In this document: positions 2,158 to 64,000 of the stretch, piece after piece | Layout of the letters: every line of letters starts with the position of its first letter | How positions within the stretch are numbered: the stretch's first letter is position 1 | DNA from: Candidatus Omnitrophota bacterium | GTDB lineage: Bacteria > Omnitrophota > JACPQZ01 | Reading direction: 5' to 3' | Length of the DNA: 64,000 bases | Assembly (NCBI GenBank): GCA_016190205.1 | Contig: JACPQZ010000076.1 | Location: 52,167-116,166, forward strand | Position numbers and translations under genes: made by a program | The notes under the pieces: generated by a model | What the model was told of the DNA's origin: nothing | Seen by the model: only the letters and a program-made list of their open reading frames with translations | The model's database searches: none

Positions 2158-2475
2158 CTGTCCGTGATTCGTGTTTCGTGATTCGTGAAACGTAGTTGAC
2201 GACTTGAGTAACCAGAAACCAGCAACCAGATACCAGAAGATTCCAGAGACCAGATACCAGAGTGATACGATAAAATTCGAAATACGAAACTCGAAGCACG
2301 AAGCAAATTCGAATGACCGAAATTCAAAACTCGAAAACGGTTGTTTTGAATTTCTGATTTCGAATTTCTAACTTGCTTCTAATTTCGATCTTCGAATTTC
2401 GTATTTTTTCTGGTTACTGGTATCTGGTATCTGGTTTCTTTTTTTCACGATTCACGATCAACGATCCACGAACCT
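2158..2475. repeat. Heptamer array spacer, three families nested as one palindrome
   Basis: Three 7-nt families are arranged in mirror order. GTGATTC words (2163-2190) pair with CACGATT/CACGATC words (2445-2475); ACCAGAT/ACCAGAA words (2210-2263) pair with TCTGGTA words (2404-2442); CGAAATT-type words (2270-2335) pair with their complements (2341-2402). The first 98 bp recur at 63910-64000. It fills the gap between lpxI and the activator gene and touches the lpxI 3' end. Confidence 0.9.
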
Positions 2476-18072: not shown

Positions 18073-18310
18073 GTTTTGCGTACCGGCATTGCATAACCTT
18101 TGTCCGGTTATCGGTGTTCGGTGATCGGTTATCGCAAGCGTCGTAAGCTATCAGCTGTCAGCCTTCAGCCATCAGCTATCTGCTTTCAGCTGACGGCTGA
18201 CGGCTGAAAGCAGAAAGCCCGTTCTATTTCTTTTCTTGCAATAACCGATCAACGATGACCGATCAACGGATTGCGATCACCGATGACCGATTCCCGAACC
18301 GGTGGCTTTT
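18073..18310. repeat. Heptamer array spacer, two families nested
   Basis: Outer layer CGGTTAT/CGGTGTT (18110-18137) pairs with CGATAAC-type CGATCAA/CGATGAC words (18240-18297). Inner layer CAGCTGT/CAGCCTT words (18150-18187) pair with CAGCTGACGGCTGACGG-type words (18188-18215). The core CGTAAGCTATCAGCTGTCAG recurs at 33781, so this is a dispersed copy of the spacer at 33737. Confidence 0.9.
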
Positions 18311-23767: not shown

Positions 23768-23994
23768 GGCACCTCGTTCGTACTGCGTACTGCGTCGTGC
23801 GTACTGCGTAACGTCTGGGCGAGCAGGATTCGTACAGCGTTAGGCATGCGACGATTAGCGTAGAGCGTAGAGCGTATAGCGTAGAGGAAAGGGTTTTACT
23901 CTATACGCTATCCGCTATCCGCTATCCGCTATCCGCTAAACGCTATCCGCTAAACGCTTCACGTTCCACGCTGTACGCAGTACGCTGTACGATC
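23768..23994. repeat. Heptamer array spacer, two families nested; copy shared with the rplC spacer
   Basis: Outer TACTGCG words (23780-23806) pair with GTACGCA/GTACGCT words (23966-23991). Inner TAGAGCG words (23856-23885) pair with CGCTATC/CGCTAAA words (23905-23958). The 63 bp at 23778-23840 are identical to 59581-59643, including a non-repetitive core, and both copies sit 10-13 bp from a start codon. Confidence 0.92.
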
Positions 23995-24756
23995 CTATTT
24001 CTCCCCAATTCGATTAACGAGATTCGCGAAATACCCGGCCCCGAAACCGTTATCTATATTGACGGCGACAACACCCGGGGCGCACGTGTTGAGTATAGAT
24101 AGGAGCGGTACGAATCCGCCCAAATGGGAGCCGTAACCGACGCTCGTAGGAACCGCCACCACCGGGGCGCTCACAAGGCCTCCGATGACGCTCGGAAGCG
24201 CTCCTTCCATTCCGCAGACTACGATGATGACCTTGGCTCGCGCCAGGACCTCTCGGTGTTCCAGCAAGCGGTGTATGCCCGCCACCCCGACATCATAAAG
24301 AGTCTCCACCCGGCTTCCGAAAAGCCTTGCCGTTACCACCGCCTCCTGGGCAACCGGGATGTCAGCAGTCCCAGCTGTCACCACAAGGACAAGCCCCCTT
24401 CCCACGGTGCGAGCGCGGCCATTGGCCGCAGTAATGACACGCCCCAACCGGTCGTAACGCGCTCCGCGAAACGCGCGGCTGAACTCCTTCCAACAAGCCT
24501 GGTCGGCGCGCGTGACCAGGACCGGATCACCCCGCCGCGCGATACGGCGGGCAATTTTCAAGACCTGCCCGGGAGTCTTTCCCTGCGCGAAGATGACCTC
24601 GGGACACCCCTTGCGTAAACTGCGGTGATGGTCCACCCTGGCGAACTTTAGATCCGAATACGGAAGGTCCTTCAAAAACCGGAACGCCTGCGCTTGAGAG
24701 ACCTTCCCCTCTTGGAGACCGGAGATCAATCTTTTAAGACGCGCCGCGTTCGACAC
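23995..24756 (-). CDS. larB: Nickel-pincer cofactor biosynthesis protein LarB
   Basis: A 253-residue LarB, which carboxylates nicotinic acid adenine dinucleotide to begin the pincer cofactor. The N-terminal helices (RLISGLQEGKVSQAQAFRFL) are followed by the PurE-like domain (about 125-245): TAGTADIPVAQEAVVTARLF, VCGMEGALPSVIGGLV and PVVAVPTSVGYG. Length is normal. It pairs with larC downstream. Confidence 0.93.
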   Translation of the reverse strand: MSNAARLKRLISGLQEGKVSQAQAFRFLKDLPYSDLKFARVDHHRSLRKGCPEVIFAQGKTPGQVLKIARRIARRGDPVLVTRADQACWKEFSRAFRGARYDRLGRVITAANGRARTVGRGLVLVVTAGTADIPVAQEAVVTARLFGSRVETLYDVGVAGIHRLLEHREVLARAKVIIVVCGMEGALPSVIGGLVSAPVVAVPTSVGYGSHLGGFVPLLSILNTCAPGVVAVNIDNGFGAGYFANLVNRIGEK

Positions 24757-33736: not shown

Positions 33737-33950
33737 CGATGTTGGTCGCTCGTCGTTCGGTTATCGTTGATCGCAAGCGCCGTAAGCTATCAGCTGTCAG
33801 CCTTCAGCCATCAGCAAAAGCTGGAGAAAATAGCTGACGGCCGAAGGCAGAAAGCCCATAATATTTCTTTTCTTGCGATAACCGATCACCGATAACCGAT
33901 CACCGAATTGCGATAACCGATCACCGATGACCGATCAACGATCCCCGAAC
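33737..33950. repeat. Heptamer array spacer, two families nested
   Basis: Outer CGGTTAT/CGTTGAT words (33756-33775) pair with CGATAAC/CGATCAC words (33877-33942). Inner CAGCTGT/CAGCCTT words (33789-33815) pair with GCTGACGGCCGAAGG (33831-33845). The spacer reaches into the 3' end of the upstream gene: the last residues FGDR and the TGA are array sequence. A related copy lies at 18105-18300. Confidence 0.9.
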
Positions 33951-35662
33951 GTTGTGCTTTCCGACGCTGCTCCGCCGTGTCCCGACATAAGAAGCACCTG
34001 TCCCAGGTTGCGCCCGGCTTCCTCAAGCGCGGGGTCAAGCGCCAGCGCCTCACGATAATACCCCGCGGCCTCCTTGAGCCTTCCCTGCTCAAAATAGACA
34101 TTTCCCAGATTATTATAAGCCTGGGCATGGGCCGGGTTCGCCTCAAGCGCTTTTCTTAAATACTCCTCCGCTTCTGAAAACCGGCCGGTGCGGCTCAGCT
34201 CTCCCCCCATATTCGTCAGGGCATCCACATGCCTGGGGCTTAACGACAAGGCCTCCCGGTAGTGCTTCATGGCCTCGGCGGGATTTCTTCGCCCGCTTTC
34301 AACGAGCCCCAGCGCATTGTGCGCATCCGGGTATTCGGCCTTCAGCGCGAGCGCCTTTTTAAGATGGTGAGCCGCCTCTTCGTACTGCGCCGAATGGAGG
34401 AGGGCGAACCCCAAGTTGTAGTGCGCCCTCGCGTTTGCCGGGCGCTTCTCTACGGTATCACGCCAGATCTCAGCGTCGCTTTGATAGTCCAGATTGCGAG
34501 CCACTGTAAGCACGCCCAGGACGAGGGCAGGGAGCATCGCAAAAGCTGAGCATAGAATGAGACGCCTTCGTTCCGGTTTCGCCCATTTGTTTAGTGCCCA
34601 ATACACCGCGAGGGTCGCCAAAGTAGCGACGCAAGCCAGAGGCAAATACATGCGGTGCTCAAACGCGGGATCCGGTAATGGAATGAAACCGGACGTGGGG
34701 GCCAGAATAAGAAAGAAGGCGAGCCCGACGAAACCCACCCTCGGATGCGCAACAGTGGCCCACAGCGCGAGGACAAAAAGTGCACCGAGGATGAGACCCG
34801 GAATCAGCACCCCTTCGCGGGCCACCTGAAGAGGCCAGGCATAATCCAGCACGAGGGGATGAGGCCAAACGCACAGCTTTAAATACTTGAGAATCACTCC
34901 GGGCTGAAGGGCGGCATACTTCAAAGGCGTAAGCTCCGAATAGGTAAACCAGGTGCCCGTCCCGTGCCTTGCCTGTGCCTGAAGCATAAGCCCCGCAGCC
35001 AAAAGTGTCGTTGAGAAAAGGGCAAGGTAAAACCCAAGGCGCCGGGCGAGGGCTTTAAAAAATGAACCTGTGACAAAACATCGGTCATAAAGAAGTATGG
35101 AGACGGGGACCGTTACCATGACGGGCTTGGCCAGCATGCCTAGGCAAGAGAAAAGAATGCTCGCCTTAAGCCACCCCTTCCGACCGCGAGGAGTCGTGCC
35201 GAGGATGAAGGCATAGAGCGCAGCCAGGTAAAAAAGCCCCATCATGGATTCGCTCCGCTGAATAACATACGTCACACTCTCGGTCTGGAGGGGGTGCACG
35301 AGCCACAGGAGGGAGATCGAAAAGGCGGGTCCCCACCGGAGCGCGGTCCTCAAGATGAAAAACAACAAAAAGGACGCAAGGACGTGGACCGCGAGATTAA
35401 ACGCATGATACCCCCAAGGATTCAAGCCGCCCAGGCGGTAATTAAAGGCAAGGGACAAATTGAGGAGCGGTCTTGACTCGCGTTCCCCGGGAATCGCGAA
35501 GAGGGTCTCCCACAGAGGCCACAGTTTACGGATGGACGGATTTTTTACAATGTAGCTTTCGTCATCAAAGACGAAATCGCCTGAAAAGCTGTTATGGTAA
35601 GCGAGGAGGGCGGCCACGAGAAGGAGGATGAGCGAAAGGGCTGTGCCGCGAGTCGCACGCAT
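33935..35662 (-). CDS. TMTC-like membrane protein with C-terminal TPR repeats (2)
   Basis: A 575-residue paralogue of the gene downstream. It shares the N-terminus FSGDFVFDDESYIVKNPSIR, WGYHAFNLAVHVLASFLLFF, HPLQTESVTYVIQRSESMMG and FEHRMYLPLA, about ten membrane helices, and four to five TPRs from about residue 409. The C-terminus is shorter, and its last few residues (FGDR) come from the heptamer array that follows. Probably a tandem duplicate; the predicted role is the same GT-C-type sugar transfer, unproven. Confidence 0.82.
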   Translation of the reverse strand: MRATRGTALSLILLLVAALLAYHNSFSGDFVFDDESYIVKNPSIRKLWPLWETLFAIPGERESRPLLNLSLAFNYRLGGLNPWGYHAFNLAVHVLASFLLFFILRTALRWGPAFSISLLWLVHPLQTESVTYVIQRSESMMGLFYLAALYAFILGTTPRGRKGWLKASILFSCLGMLAKPVMVTVPVSILLYDRCFVTGSFFKALARRLGFYLALFSTTLLAAGLMLQAQARHGTGTWFTYSELTPLKYAALQPGVILKYLKLCVWPHPLVLDYAWPLQVAREGVLIPGLILGALFVLALWATVAHPRVGFVGLAFFLILAPTSGFIPLPDPAFEHRMYLPLACVATLATLAVYWALNKWAKPERRRLILCSAFAMLPALVLGVLTVARNLDYQSDAEIWRDTVEKRPANARAHYNLGFALLHSAQYEEAAHHLKKALALKAEYPDAHNALGLVESGRRNPAEAMKHYREALSLSPRHVDALTNMGGELSRTGRFSEAEEYLRKALEANPAHAQAYNNLGNVYFEQGRLKEAAGYYREALALDPALEEAGRNLGQVLLMSGHGGAASESTTFGDR

Positions 35663-46332: not shown

Positions 46333-46640
46333 AATACTCCTTCGTATCTCGTATCTCGTGAAGCGTATTTCGCAAACCATTTGCCGCAAGATAACAATAG
46401 CCGCTGGCAGCTCGTGTCGTGTGCCGTGAATCGTGGATCGTGATTCGAAAGTGTTCAAATCCGAATCTCGAAATGCGAAGCACGAACAAATCTGAAGCGC
46501 GAAATTCGAAATTCAAAACCAGCCGTTTCGAATTTCGGACTTCATCTCATCGCTGGTTTCTTTTTTGCGATTCACGATCCACGAATCACAATTAACGAGA
46601 TGGCGCTTCACGCTTCACGAACGACGAGCGACGAACAAAT
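46333..46640. repeat. Heptamer array spacer, three layers
   Basis: 308 bp between infA and rpmJ with no gene. Layers in mirror order: TCGTATC/TCGTGAA words (46338-46362) with CACGCTT/CACGAAC words (46608-46635); CGTGAAT/CGTGGAT words (46410-46445) with ATCCACG/AATCACG words (46568-46598); CGAATCT/CGAAATG words (46461-46512) with TTTCGAATTTCGG (46527-46540). Confidence 0.82.
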
Positions 46641-51491: not shown

Positions 51492-51744
51492 GATTTCTAC
51501 TCTTAAAGCTTTACGCTTGTCGCTAGTCGCTAGATGCTAGTCGCTAGCAGAAAAGCAGTCGCTAGTGACTGGTCGCTAGCAAGAGTCGATAGACCACAGT
51601 CCATAGTCCACAAGCCAAACCGTGGACTGTTGACCGTGGACTGAGGACTACAGGCGCCCAGCGACTTTTTTCTTGCCAGCGACTGGCGACCAGCGACTTT
51701 TTTCTTGCCAGCGACTGGCGACCAGCGACTAGCGACTAAACCTG
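51492..51744. repeat. Heptamer array spacer, two families nested
   Basis: Outer TAGTCGC words (51516-51580) pair with CAGCGAC/TAGCGAC words (51658-51737). Inner GTCCATA/GTCCACA words (51587-51615) pair with GTGGACT words (51621-51645). One block of the outer right arm is duplicated (51659-51690 and 51691-51725). It lies between rpsH and rplF, inside the ribosomal operon. Confidence 0.92.
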
Positions 51745-55772: not shown

Positions 55773-55908
55773 CATCAACCTCTATAAACTTTTGCTTGTC
55801 GCTTGTAGTCCACAGTCCGCAGTCGACAGTCCACGGATTGGCTTGTGGACTATGGACTGTGGTCTGTCGACTCATGCTAGCGACCAGCGACTAGCGACTG
55901 AAATCTTT
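55773..55908. repeat. Heptamer array spacer, two families nested
   Basis: Outer TTGTCGC (55795-55808) pairs with AGCGACC/AGCGACT (55878-55900). Inner GTCCACA/GTCGACA words (55808-55836) pair with GTGGACT/ATGGACT words (55845-55873). It is the rplV-rpsC gap. Confidence 0.88.
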
Positions 55909-61824: not shown

Positions 61825-63903
61825 CTATGACTTAGCTACGATGACTTTCTCCGAGACATGCTTTGGAACCTCTTGATAATGATGCGGTTCCATGGTGTAA
61901 GTCGCCCGCCCTTGTGTCAGACTCCGGAGCGCTGTGGCATAGCCAAACACCTCGCTCAAGGGCACAAACCCGTCGAGGATCCGCATCTTGCCCCGGTCGC
62001 GCATGTTGGTGACCTGTGCCCTGCGGGAATTAAGGTCCCCGATCACGTCACCCATGTTCTCCTCCGGAGTAATGACCTCAATTTTCATAATGGGTTCCAA
62101 AAGAACGGGGTTCGCCTTCTTCGCCGCCGCTTGAAAGGCAATGGAGCCGGCGATCTTAAACGCGATATCCGAAGAATCGACCTCGTGATAGGAACCGTCC
62201 GTAAGCGTGACGCGGAAATCGATCACCGGGTACCCGGCCAGGGGGCCAGTTCTCAAAGCCTCTTCCACACCTTCCTCCACAGAGGAGATATACTCCTTCG
62301 GGATTCTCCCGCCTGTAATCTTGTCCACGAATTCAAAACCAGACCCCGCCTCCAGCGGCTCGAGTTCGATGTATACATGGCCATACTGGCCGTGTCCCCC
62401 CGTCTGCCGGATGAACTTGCCCTCCTGCTCCACTTTCTTGCGGACGGTTTCTTTGTAGGCCACCTGCGGCTTCCCCACATTGGCATCCACCTTAAACTCC
62501 CGCAGCATGCGGTCTTTCAAGACGTCGAGGTGGAGCTCCCCCATCCCCGAAATAATGGTCTGGCCGGTCTCACGGTCAGAACGGATCCTGAAGGTCGGAT
62601 CCTCGTCCGCCAGGCGGCTTAAGGCTACCGAGAGCTTATCCTGATCCGCCTTGGTCTTGGGCTCGATGGCCATGCTGATCACGGGGTCCGGAAAGTTCAT
62701 TGACTCCAGAACGATCGGATGGTCTTCATCCGAGAGGGTATCGCCTGTCTTTACATCCTTGAGCCCCACGCAGGCCACGATGTCGCCCGCGAAGGCCTCC
62801 GGATAGTCCTCGCGCTTGTTCGCATGCATGAGGAGCAGCCGGTTGATCCGCTCCCTGCTGTTTTTCGTCGCGTTATACACGTAAGACCCCGACTTAAGCA
62901 TCCCTGAATAAACCCGCACGTACGTGAGCTTCCCCACAAAAGGATCGGCTGAAATCTTAAAGGCCAGCCCGCTGAATGGTTCATCGTCACTGGGCTTGCG
63001 CTTGTCGGCCCCGTTTTGGGAACCCGGCCGCGTTCCTTCCACCGCCGTGATGTCGCTGGGCGCGGGGAGGTAATCCACCACGGCATCCAGAAGGGGCTGA
63101 ACCCCCTTGTTTTTAAATGACGATCCGCAGAGGACGGGCACCACCTGGCTTTGAACAGTCTGCCTGCGCAGGGAAGCTGCGATTTCTTCAATGCTCGGCT
63201 TTTTATCTTCGATATAATATTCCATCATACGCTCATCATGCTCGGCCAGACGCTCTATGAGATCGTGATGCGCCTTTTCGGCCTCCTTTTTAAACTCGGC
63301 CGGGATTTCGATCACGTCATATTGGGCACCTAGGGTCTCATCGTGATAAATGAGGGCCCTCATCCGCACGAGATCAATGACGCCCTTGTGCTGGTCTTCG
63401 ACCCCCAATGGAATCTGGATGGGCACGGCATTCGACCCCAGGCGGTCCCGCATCTCCTCCACCGCCTTCCAAAAGTTGGCCTCGATGCGGTCCATCTTGT
63501 TCACAAACGCAAGGCGCGGCACCTTGTACCGGTCGGCCTGCCTCCAGACGGTCTCGGACTGCGGCTCCACACCACCCACACCGCAAAAGACGCCCACCGC
63601 TCCATCCAGGACCCTTAGGGAGCGCTCCACCTCCATCGTAAAATCTACGTGGCCGGGCGTATCGATGATGTTGATGCGGTGCTCGCGCCAAAAACAGGTC
63701 GTGGCGGCAGAGGTAATCGTGATCCCGCGCTCCTGCTCCTGCACCATCCAGTCCATGGTGGCGGTCCCGTCATGGACCTCACCCATCCGGTGCAGCTTCC
63801 CCGTGTAATAGAGAATGCGCTCCGTGGTCGTGGTCTTGCCCGCATCGATATGGGCGATGATTCCGATATTTCTCGTTTTCTCTAAGCTATATTGTCGCGG
63901 CAT
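61825..63903 (-). CDS. fusA: Elongation factor G
   Basis: A 692-residue EF-G driving translocation. G1 [20 protein letters not shown], switch 2 [20 protein letters not shown] and NKMDR are present, as are domain IV ([20 protein letters not shown]) and domain V. The ATG at 63901-63903 has only a weak upstream GGA, because a heptamer array begins 6 bp upstream. rpsL and rpsG probably lie beyond the right edge. Confidence 0.98.
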
Positions 63904-64000
63904 ATGACATCCGTGATTCGTGATTCGTGAAACGTAGTTGACGGCTTGAGTAACCAGAAACCAGCAACCAGATACCAGAAGATTCCAGAGACCAGATACC
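63904..64000. repeat. Heptamer arrays GTGATTC and ACCAGAT, second copy of the 2161 spacer
   Basis: 63910-64000 repeats 2161-2258 in the same orientation with one substitution and exactly one 7-nt unit less. The right part of the spacer is outside the window. Confidence 0.92.

Follow-up and report, generated by a model that had tools for sequence, protein, structure and literature searches.

The spacer at positions 2158–2475 of the 64,000-nucleotide stretch of Candidatus Omnitrophota DNA analyzed here (hereafter, the window) is, judging from sequence comparison, quite probably a stack of gene-less copies of widespread small insertion elements that bear a gene when complete and are nested in one another's loops. 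A complete element consists of tandem 7-base units (8 or 9 bases in some lineages), one four-helix-bundle gene, and then the units inverted, with the two arms serving as terminal inverted repeats. Such an element would insert as a block, and at least one instance of a target-site duplication is seen for the family; the gene would often be lost by internal deletion, with both arms kept; and a second element in the loop of the first would produce an onion-like arrangement. Composite stacks would then be copied as units, and slippage would alter the length of the arms, one side at a time. The mirror order of the layers would follow from one palindromic element lying inside the loop of another. 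We infer that the layers in the window moved in the same way as the plasmid elements described below, and that insertion into loops built the stack.

Organization and predicted folding of the nested spacer

Nearly the whole spacer is made up of three heptamer families in the order 1-2-3-3'-2'-1' (Table 1). It is flanked by two minus-strand genes, one LpxI-like (stop at 2474) and one for a NifA-like regulator (start near 2140). The mirrored order, first noticed in a sequence-only reading of the window, is real according to the repeat parse of the spacer. The heptamer units combine a constant core with a variable part, for example, ACCAG followed by two positions at which A or T accounts for 96% of the bases. 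In the window as a whole, 7 is the sole strong short period, with 550 windows passing at lag 7 and none at lags 5, 8, 9, 10, or 11. Neither a four-helix-bundle gene nor a relic of one was found within the window itself, the nested spacer included.

The same reading had predicted long hairpins and had named beforehand, as the test, a comparison with shuffled heptamers. As RNA, the spacer folds at -119 kcal/mol, whereas dinucleotide shuffles reach -70 (z -11) and shuffled heptamers -79 (z -9); as single-stranded DNA, it folds at -73.5, compared with -34.5 for shuffles (z -9.9). The predicted shape is a single long hairpin that runs through all three layers, so that the expected hairpins would indeed form, albeit imperfect ones.

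Table 1. Coordinates of the layers of the nested spacer, of other layered sites in the window, and of gene-bearing elements of the same genome
Feature	Position	Strand	Remarks
Outer layer, left arm: TCGTGWW heptamers	2163..2199	+	TCGTG-type arms also flank the four-helix-bundle gene at L120
Middle layer, left arm: ACCAGWW heptamers (4 units, then a register shift and more units)	2211..2262	+	Architecture also in ~25 dispersed copies and around the four-helix-bundle gene at L122
Inner layer, left arm: CGAAATT-family heptamers	2273..2331	+	
Inner layer, right arm: complement of the inner left arm	2343..2406	-	Repeat parse and folding
Middle layer, right arm: CTGGT heptamers, of which just 4 units remain	2410..2439	-	
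Outer layer, right arm: CACGA heptamers	2447..2475	-	
Two layers: CGGT family outer, CAGC family inner	18101..18302		
Two layers: CGTACTG family outer, AGCGTAT/CTATCCG family inner	23772..23997		CGTAC arms flank the four-helix-bundle gene at L119
CGGT-family hairpin with CAGC-family insert retaining one clear arm	33757..33952		
Two clear layers, TCGTG outer and CGAA inner, plus single ACCAG/CTGGT units	46411..46638		
Two layers: GTCGCTA family outer, GTCCACA family inner	51501..51742		
Two layers: GTCGCT family outer, GTCCACA family inner	55792..55907		
Near-identical second copy of the outer and middle left arms of the nested spacer	63899..63983	+	At the contig end; contig C70 stops at window position 64000
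Four-helix-bundle gene between CGTAC arms	L119		
Four-helix-bundle gene between TCGTG arms	L120		
Four-helix-bundle gene between GTGGTGA/CACTCAT arms	L121		
Four-helix-bundle gene between ACCAG arms	L122		

Order of the repeat families and dispersed copies in the genome

Order statistics were collected over 383 kb of this genome, sampled as stretches. Among the 114 array regions identified, 67 hold one family in both orientations, and neighboring arrays of the same family are inverted in 72 cases vs direct in 22. All 11 two-family spacers that parse cleanly are nested, with none serial and none crossed (p = 6e-6 against an expectation of 1/3), where the 11 cases represent 8 distinct core pairs, some of these being rotations of one family, and are partly non-independent because ACCAG/CGAA copies recur. 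The initial claim that the matched mirror order goes beyond chance is thus supported.

The ACCAG layer is found, gene-less, in about 25 further spacers of the 383-kb sample, with a single common architecture (4+3 / 3+4), in which four units and, after a register shift of 3–4 bases, three more lead to a variable loop, beyond which the mirror image follows. The copies vary in that some have a TCGTG layer outside, some a CGAA layer inside, and some neither. Composite elements exist as dispersed copies as well, given that the left half of the nested spacer recurs at 63899–63983. Overall, gene-less copies far outnumber complete elements in this genome. Two pairs of ACCAG elements (L109:5821-6325 with L117:11570-12008, and L107:8322-8634 with L107:10256-10626) have reverse-complementary loops, as if by inversion of the loop between the arms or by insertion of the element in the opposite orientation.

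A four-helix-bundle gene between the arms

Profile search detected five PF05635 genes in this genome. Four of them are directly enclosed by inverted heptamer arms, with a different heptamer family at each; the fifth, which is the weakest match, has no clear arms. All four arm-flanked proteins match both TIGR02436 and PF05635 above the cut-off, and the one from L120, with which this was tested, is related to the solved Xanthomonas protein 2gsc. Two of the three layers of the nested spacer, ACCAG and TCGTG, thus have arms of a type that also flanks four-helix-bundle genes in the same genome; gene-bearing members were not found for the innermost CGAAATT family or for the CGGT, CAGC, GTCGCTA, and GTCCACA families.

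The loop of one ACCAG copy retains the start and the end of a four-helix-bundle gene. At L104:18961-19214 lies a version of the L122 element shortened by about 240 bases through internal deletion, in which the gene ends and both arms are kept; some 1.2 kb separates the two copies, whose flanking DNA is also duplicated.

Insertion on cyanobacterial plasmids

Insertion can be read from related cyanobacterial plasmids. At site A, the plasmids of Trichormus and Scytonema are filled, and six plasmids at ~97.5% identity are empty. The left flank joined to the right flank minus five bases gives the empty site exactly, which corresponds to a 423-bp insertion with the duplication GTAAT; this clean target duplication comes from site A only, on the Trichormus plasmid, that is, from a genome other than that of the window, sites B, D, and E being too diverged to read. 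Other plasmids carry the 423-bp element at different positions, where homology stops at the element ends, and a gene-less internal-deletion copy of it is present on a Nostoc plasmid (L274). Several hallmarks of mobile elements are accordingly observed: an empty site and a target-site duplication at site A, and unrelated positions with homology ending at the element ends, the latter both on the plasmids and for the ACCAG copies in the genome of the window. The elements provide ready-made pairs of filled and empty sites in cyanobacteria that can be cultivated.

At L266:909-1217, Nostoc ATCC 53789 has a gene-less GGGAACA hairpin at a site that, in two other Nostoc plasmids, is occupied by a complete element of the GGGAACA unit.

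Association of the arrays with the gene across phyla

The association extends well beyond this genome. Of the 29 PF05635 loci from other genera of the phylum sample, which were drawn by gene score alone rather than chosen for repeats, 19 are flanked on both sides by arrays of 7-base units no more than 220 bp away; the same holds for 23 of 30 loci from named genomes of other phyla, which were picked because ACCAG arrays are present in them. Arrays are found on both sides at 46 of 64 four-helix-bundle loci, compared with 2.8% of random positions and none of 26 loci of HepT, a control gene family of similar size; periods other than 7 appear at 0–2 of the 64 loci. When the left and right arms of one locus are compared, the inverted match beats the direct one in 43 of 46 loci, and the unit sequence differs at nearly every locus. 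The signal is weaker in an unselected Bacteroidota sample, with period 7 on both sides at 6 of 29 loci and period 8 at 4 of 29.

The four-helix-bundle protein is encoded on 43 plasmid records, mostly cyanobacterial, and is without a match in phages. In all 16 plasmid regions that were read, the gene is accompanied on one side or both by arrays of 7-, 8-, or 9-base units, and most of the regions have inverted arms. The plasmid genes occupy the cas10-cmr3 and cas6-cas4 intervals and are also found in conjugation (tra) operons; from such positions inside cas, conjugation, and other operons, the elements can alter gene expression and genome structure. The elements inside CRISPR-cas operons (cas10-cmr3 and cas6-cas4) are those at L254:1432-1910, L260:1110-1935, and L251:1-3348; in the one from Pseudanabaena, between cas6 and cas4 (L251:1390-1980), the arrays are direct, not inverted (AAAGCTA on the left, AAAGCCA on the right). 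At several loci (L184, L188, L198, L201, L254, L255, and L256), the arms have 8-base units or, at L256, 9-base units in place of 7.

Variation of the arms

The sequence-only reading held that the two arms must either form by inverted copying or be selected as pairs. The latter possibility was rejected because both unit numbers and variable bases differ independently between the arms. In related plasmid insertions, the arms change singly: the left arm at site A counts five heptamers on the Trichormus plasmid but three on the Scytonema one, with the right arm unchanged, and the right arm at site B has five or six, with the left arm unchanged. The variable bases of 29 parsed ACCAG arm pairs, a set that includes some overlapping or shifted rows, agree at a level of 0.43 within a pair vs 0.51 between elements, and a stricter alignment of only 10 pairs gives the same direction without significance. 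Over all elements, the unit numbers of the two arms are correlated (rho 0.41), in part because the ACCAG copies share one architecture. The cores of the ACCAG arms are 0.91 identical, whereas the variable positions drift yet remain A or T at the above frequency. At L151, the arms are identical over 30 bp, and some other loci are alike in this respect, which suggests that arms may start identical and then drift.

Could slippage grow the 7-base arrays and inverted copying at hairpins (template switching) make the second arm, with no mobile element involved and an incidental link to the gene? Heptamers are the commonest long simple repeats in bacteria, for which polymerase slippage has been proposed by authors cited in passages of PMC4679880 and PMC4692102; the unit number differs between related insertions, and arm pairs such as that of L151 look as they would after inverted copying. 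This explanation nevertheless appears improbable, given that it accounts neither for the inverted arrays on both sides of this gene family at most loci, with none for the control, nor for the exact 423-bp insertion with a target duplication, the internal-deletion copies, and the fixed 4+3 / 3+4 architecture of ACCAG. Slippage probably does act on arm length.

The conserved cores and drifting A/T-rich positions are also what a bound motif would show, and Geobacter metallireducens has paired arrays of five heptanucleotides (class 3 sites in a passage of PMC2700814), but regulatory protein-binding arrays of the IHF/HU type, as proposed for that bacterium, with cores under selection, would leave unexplained the gene inside the arms, the insertions, and the nesting, and we consider them very unlikely. 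If the cores were bound by the protein of the element itself, this explanation could merge with that of nested insertion elements.

SbcD and candidate mobilizing enzymes

The sequence-only reading had advised a check for loss of sbcCD, given that something must tolerate or maintain palindromes of this kind. SbcD is indeed absent from this genome; as a cause of the palindromes, however, the loss was rejected because SbcD is missing across the phylum sample too (0 of 58 over the cut-off) and similar elements are present in Bacteroidota and Cyanobacteria.

The element itself contains no recombinase gene, and its mobility might conceivably be at the RNA level, but no match to a reverse transcriptase was found in this assembly, which is 92.8% complete. 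The four Y1_Tnp genes above the cut-off in this genome raise the prospect that REP/BIME-like palindromes are moved in trans by REP-associated tyrosine transposases, REPs likewise being dispersed intergenic palindromes, yet none of the four genes has arrays on both sides, vs four of five four-helix-bundle genes between heptamer arms, and REPs of 20–40 bp with GTAG/CGTC tags, as given in a passage of PMC3733652, differ from the 80–330 bp arrays of 7-base units seen here, which leaves this prospect very unlikely.

Relationship to known elements and the possible role of the protein

A close parallel to the nested insertion elements is offered by the intervening sequences (IVS) of 23S rRNA, such as that of Coxiella burnetii (S23p/IVP gene), which are small elements, cut out of the RNA by RNase III, in which terminal inverted repeats form a stem whose loop holds a single four-helix-bundle gene. 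In the Coxiella IVS, the gene is immediately preceded by 2–3 tandem heptamers (GACAGAT), which vary from strain to strain (PMC4990558), and authors cited in a passage of the same paper proposed that rRNA intervening sequences were once mobile. Like an IVS, the complete elements of this genome have the PF05635 gene in the loop (the gene-less nested spacer of the window does not), and the terminal inverted repeats are predicted to form a stem. Unlike an IVS, they are not in a 23S rRNA gene: the window elements lie between protein genes, and the plasmid copies in tra, cas, and other operons. In addition, both arms are arrays of 7–9 base units, and gene-less copies greatly outnumber complete ones and nest mutually.

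The elements resemble MITEs in being short and gene-less, with terminal inverted repeats, one clean 5-bp target duplication, and derivation from the gene-bearing copy by internal deletion, but the gene of the complete copy is no known transposase, and the inverted repeats take the form of tandem arrays, with differences from one element to the next. With REP/BIME and REPINs they share the many-copy dispersed intergenic palindromes, and differ in unit structure, size, and the associated gene; the Y1_Tnp genes here are outside arrays. The window arrays are tandem and intergenic, as are the 7-base units, partly variable and sometimes in inverted pairs, of the heptanucleotide repeats of Xanthomonas (GGGAATC), Nostoc (GGGGATT), Beggiatoaceae (TAACTGA), and Geobacter metallireducens (paired); passages of PMC4692102, PMC4679880, and PMC2700814 that describe these do not link them to a four-helix-bundle gene, insertion events, or nesting. 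Our search of the open-access literature found no earlier description of a link between heptamer repeats and the four-helix-bundle gene.

The protein is also a distant relative of Avd, the accessory protein of diversity-generating retroelements (NF033474, E 1e-4 to 1e-6, far below the cut-off); this genome is without a reverse transcriptase match. Avd binds nucleic acid. The constant association with the arrays and the weak kinship with Avd suggest that the four-helix-bundle protein may bind the arms of its own element, in the form of either DNA or an RNA hairpin like that of the rRNA intervening sequences, and take part in mobility. We would tentatively go further and entertain the possibility that the protein, either unaided or together with a host enzyme, acts as the specificity factor for previously unrecognized minimal mobile elements, reading arms of 7–9 base units, with each protein matched to its own unit, and moving gene-less copies in trans; such elements would be a main source of bacterial heptamer repeats, and the rRNA intervening sequences would be one branch of them. 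Two old puzzles, namely, the reason that 7-base units outnumber all other long simple repeats in bacteria and the role of the IVS four-helix-bundle protein, would then become one testable question, and the link to mobile elements could explain the commonness of 7-base repeats in bacterial genomes.

Additional layered sites in the window

Further layered sites had been listed by the sequence-only reading. Two layers were recovered at those starting at 18105, 23768, 51492, and 55773, but not at 33737, where the inner layer has one clear arm only; the supposed three-layer site at 46333 did not withstand parsing as a clean three-layer structure (Table 1). The right arm of the site at 51492 contains a 32-bp direct repeat (2.4 copies, 97%; 51653-51730). 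The contig ends within the composite repeat at 63899-64000, and arrays are also nearby at the contig ends C12, C60, C71, and C74; these elements, therefore, probably break the assembly. The density of arrays is very uneven, from 0.5–1.5 per 10 kb over the opening 52 kb of the contig (G000:C70:1-52166, L100-L102) to 11.4 per 10 kb in the window.
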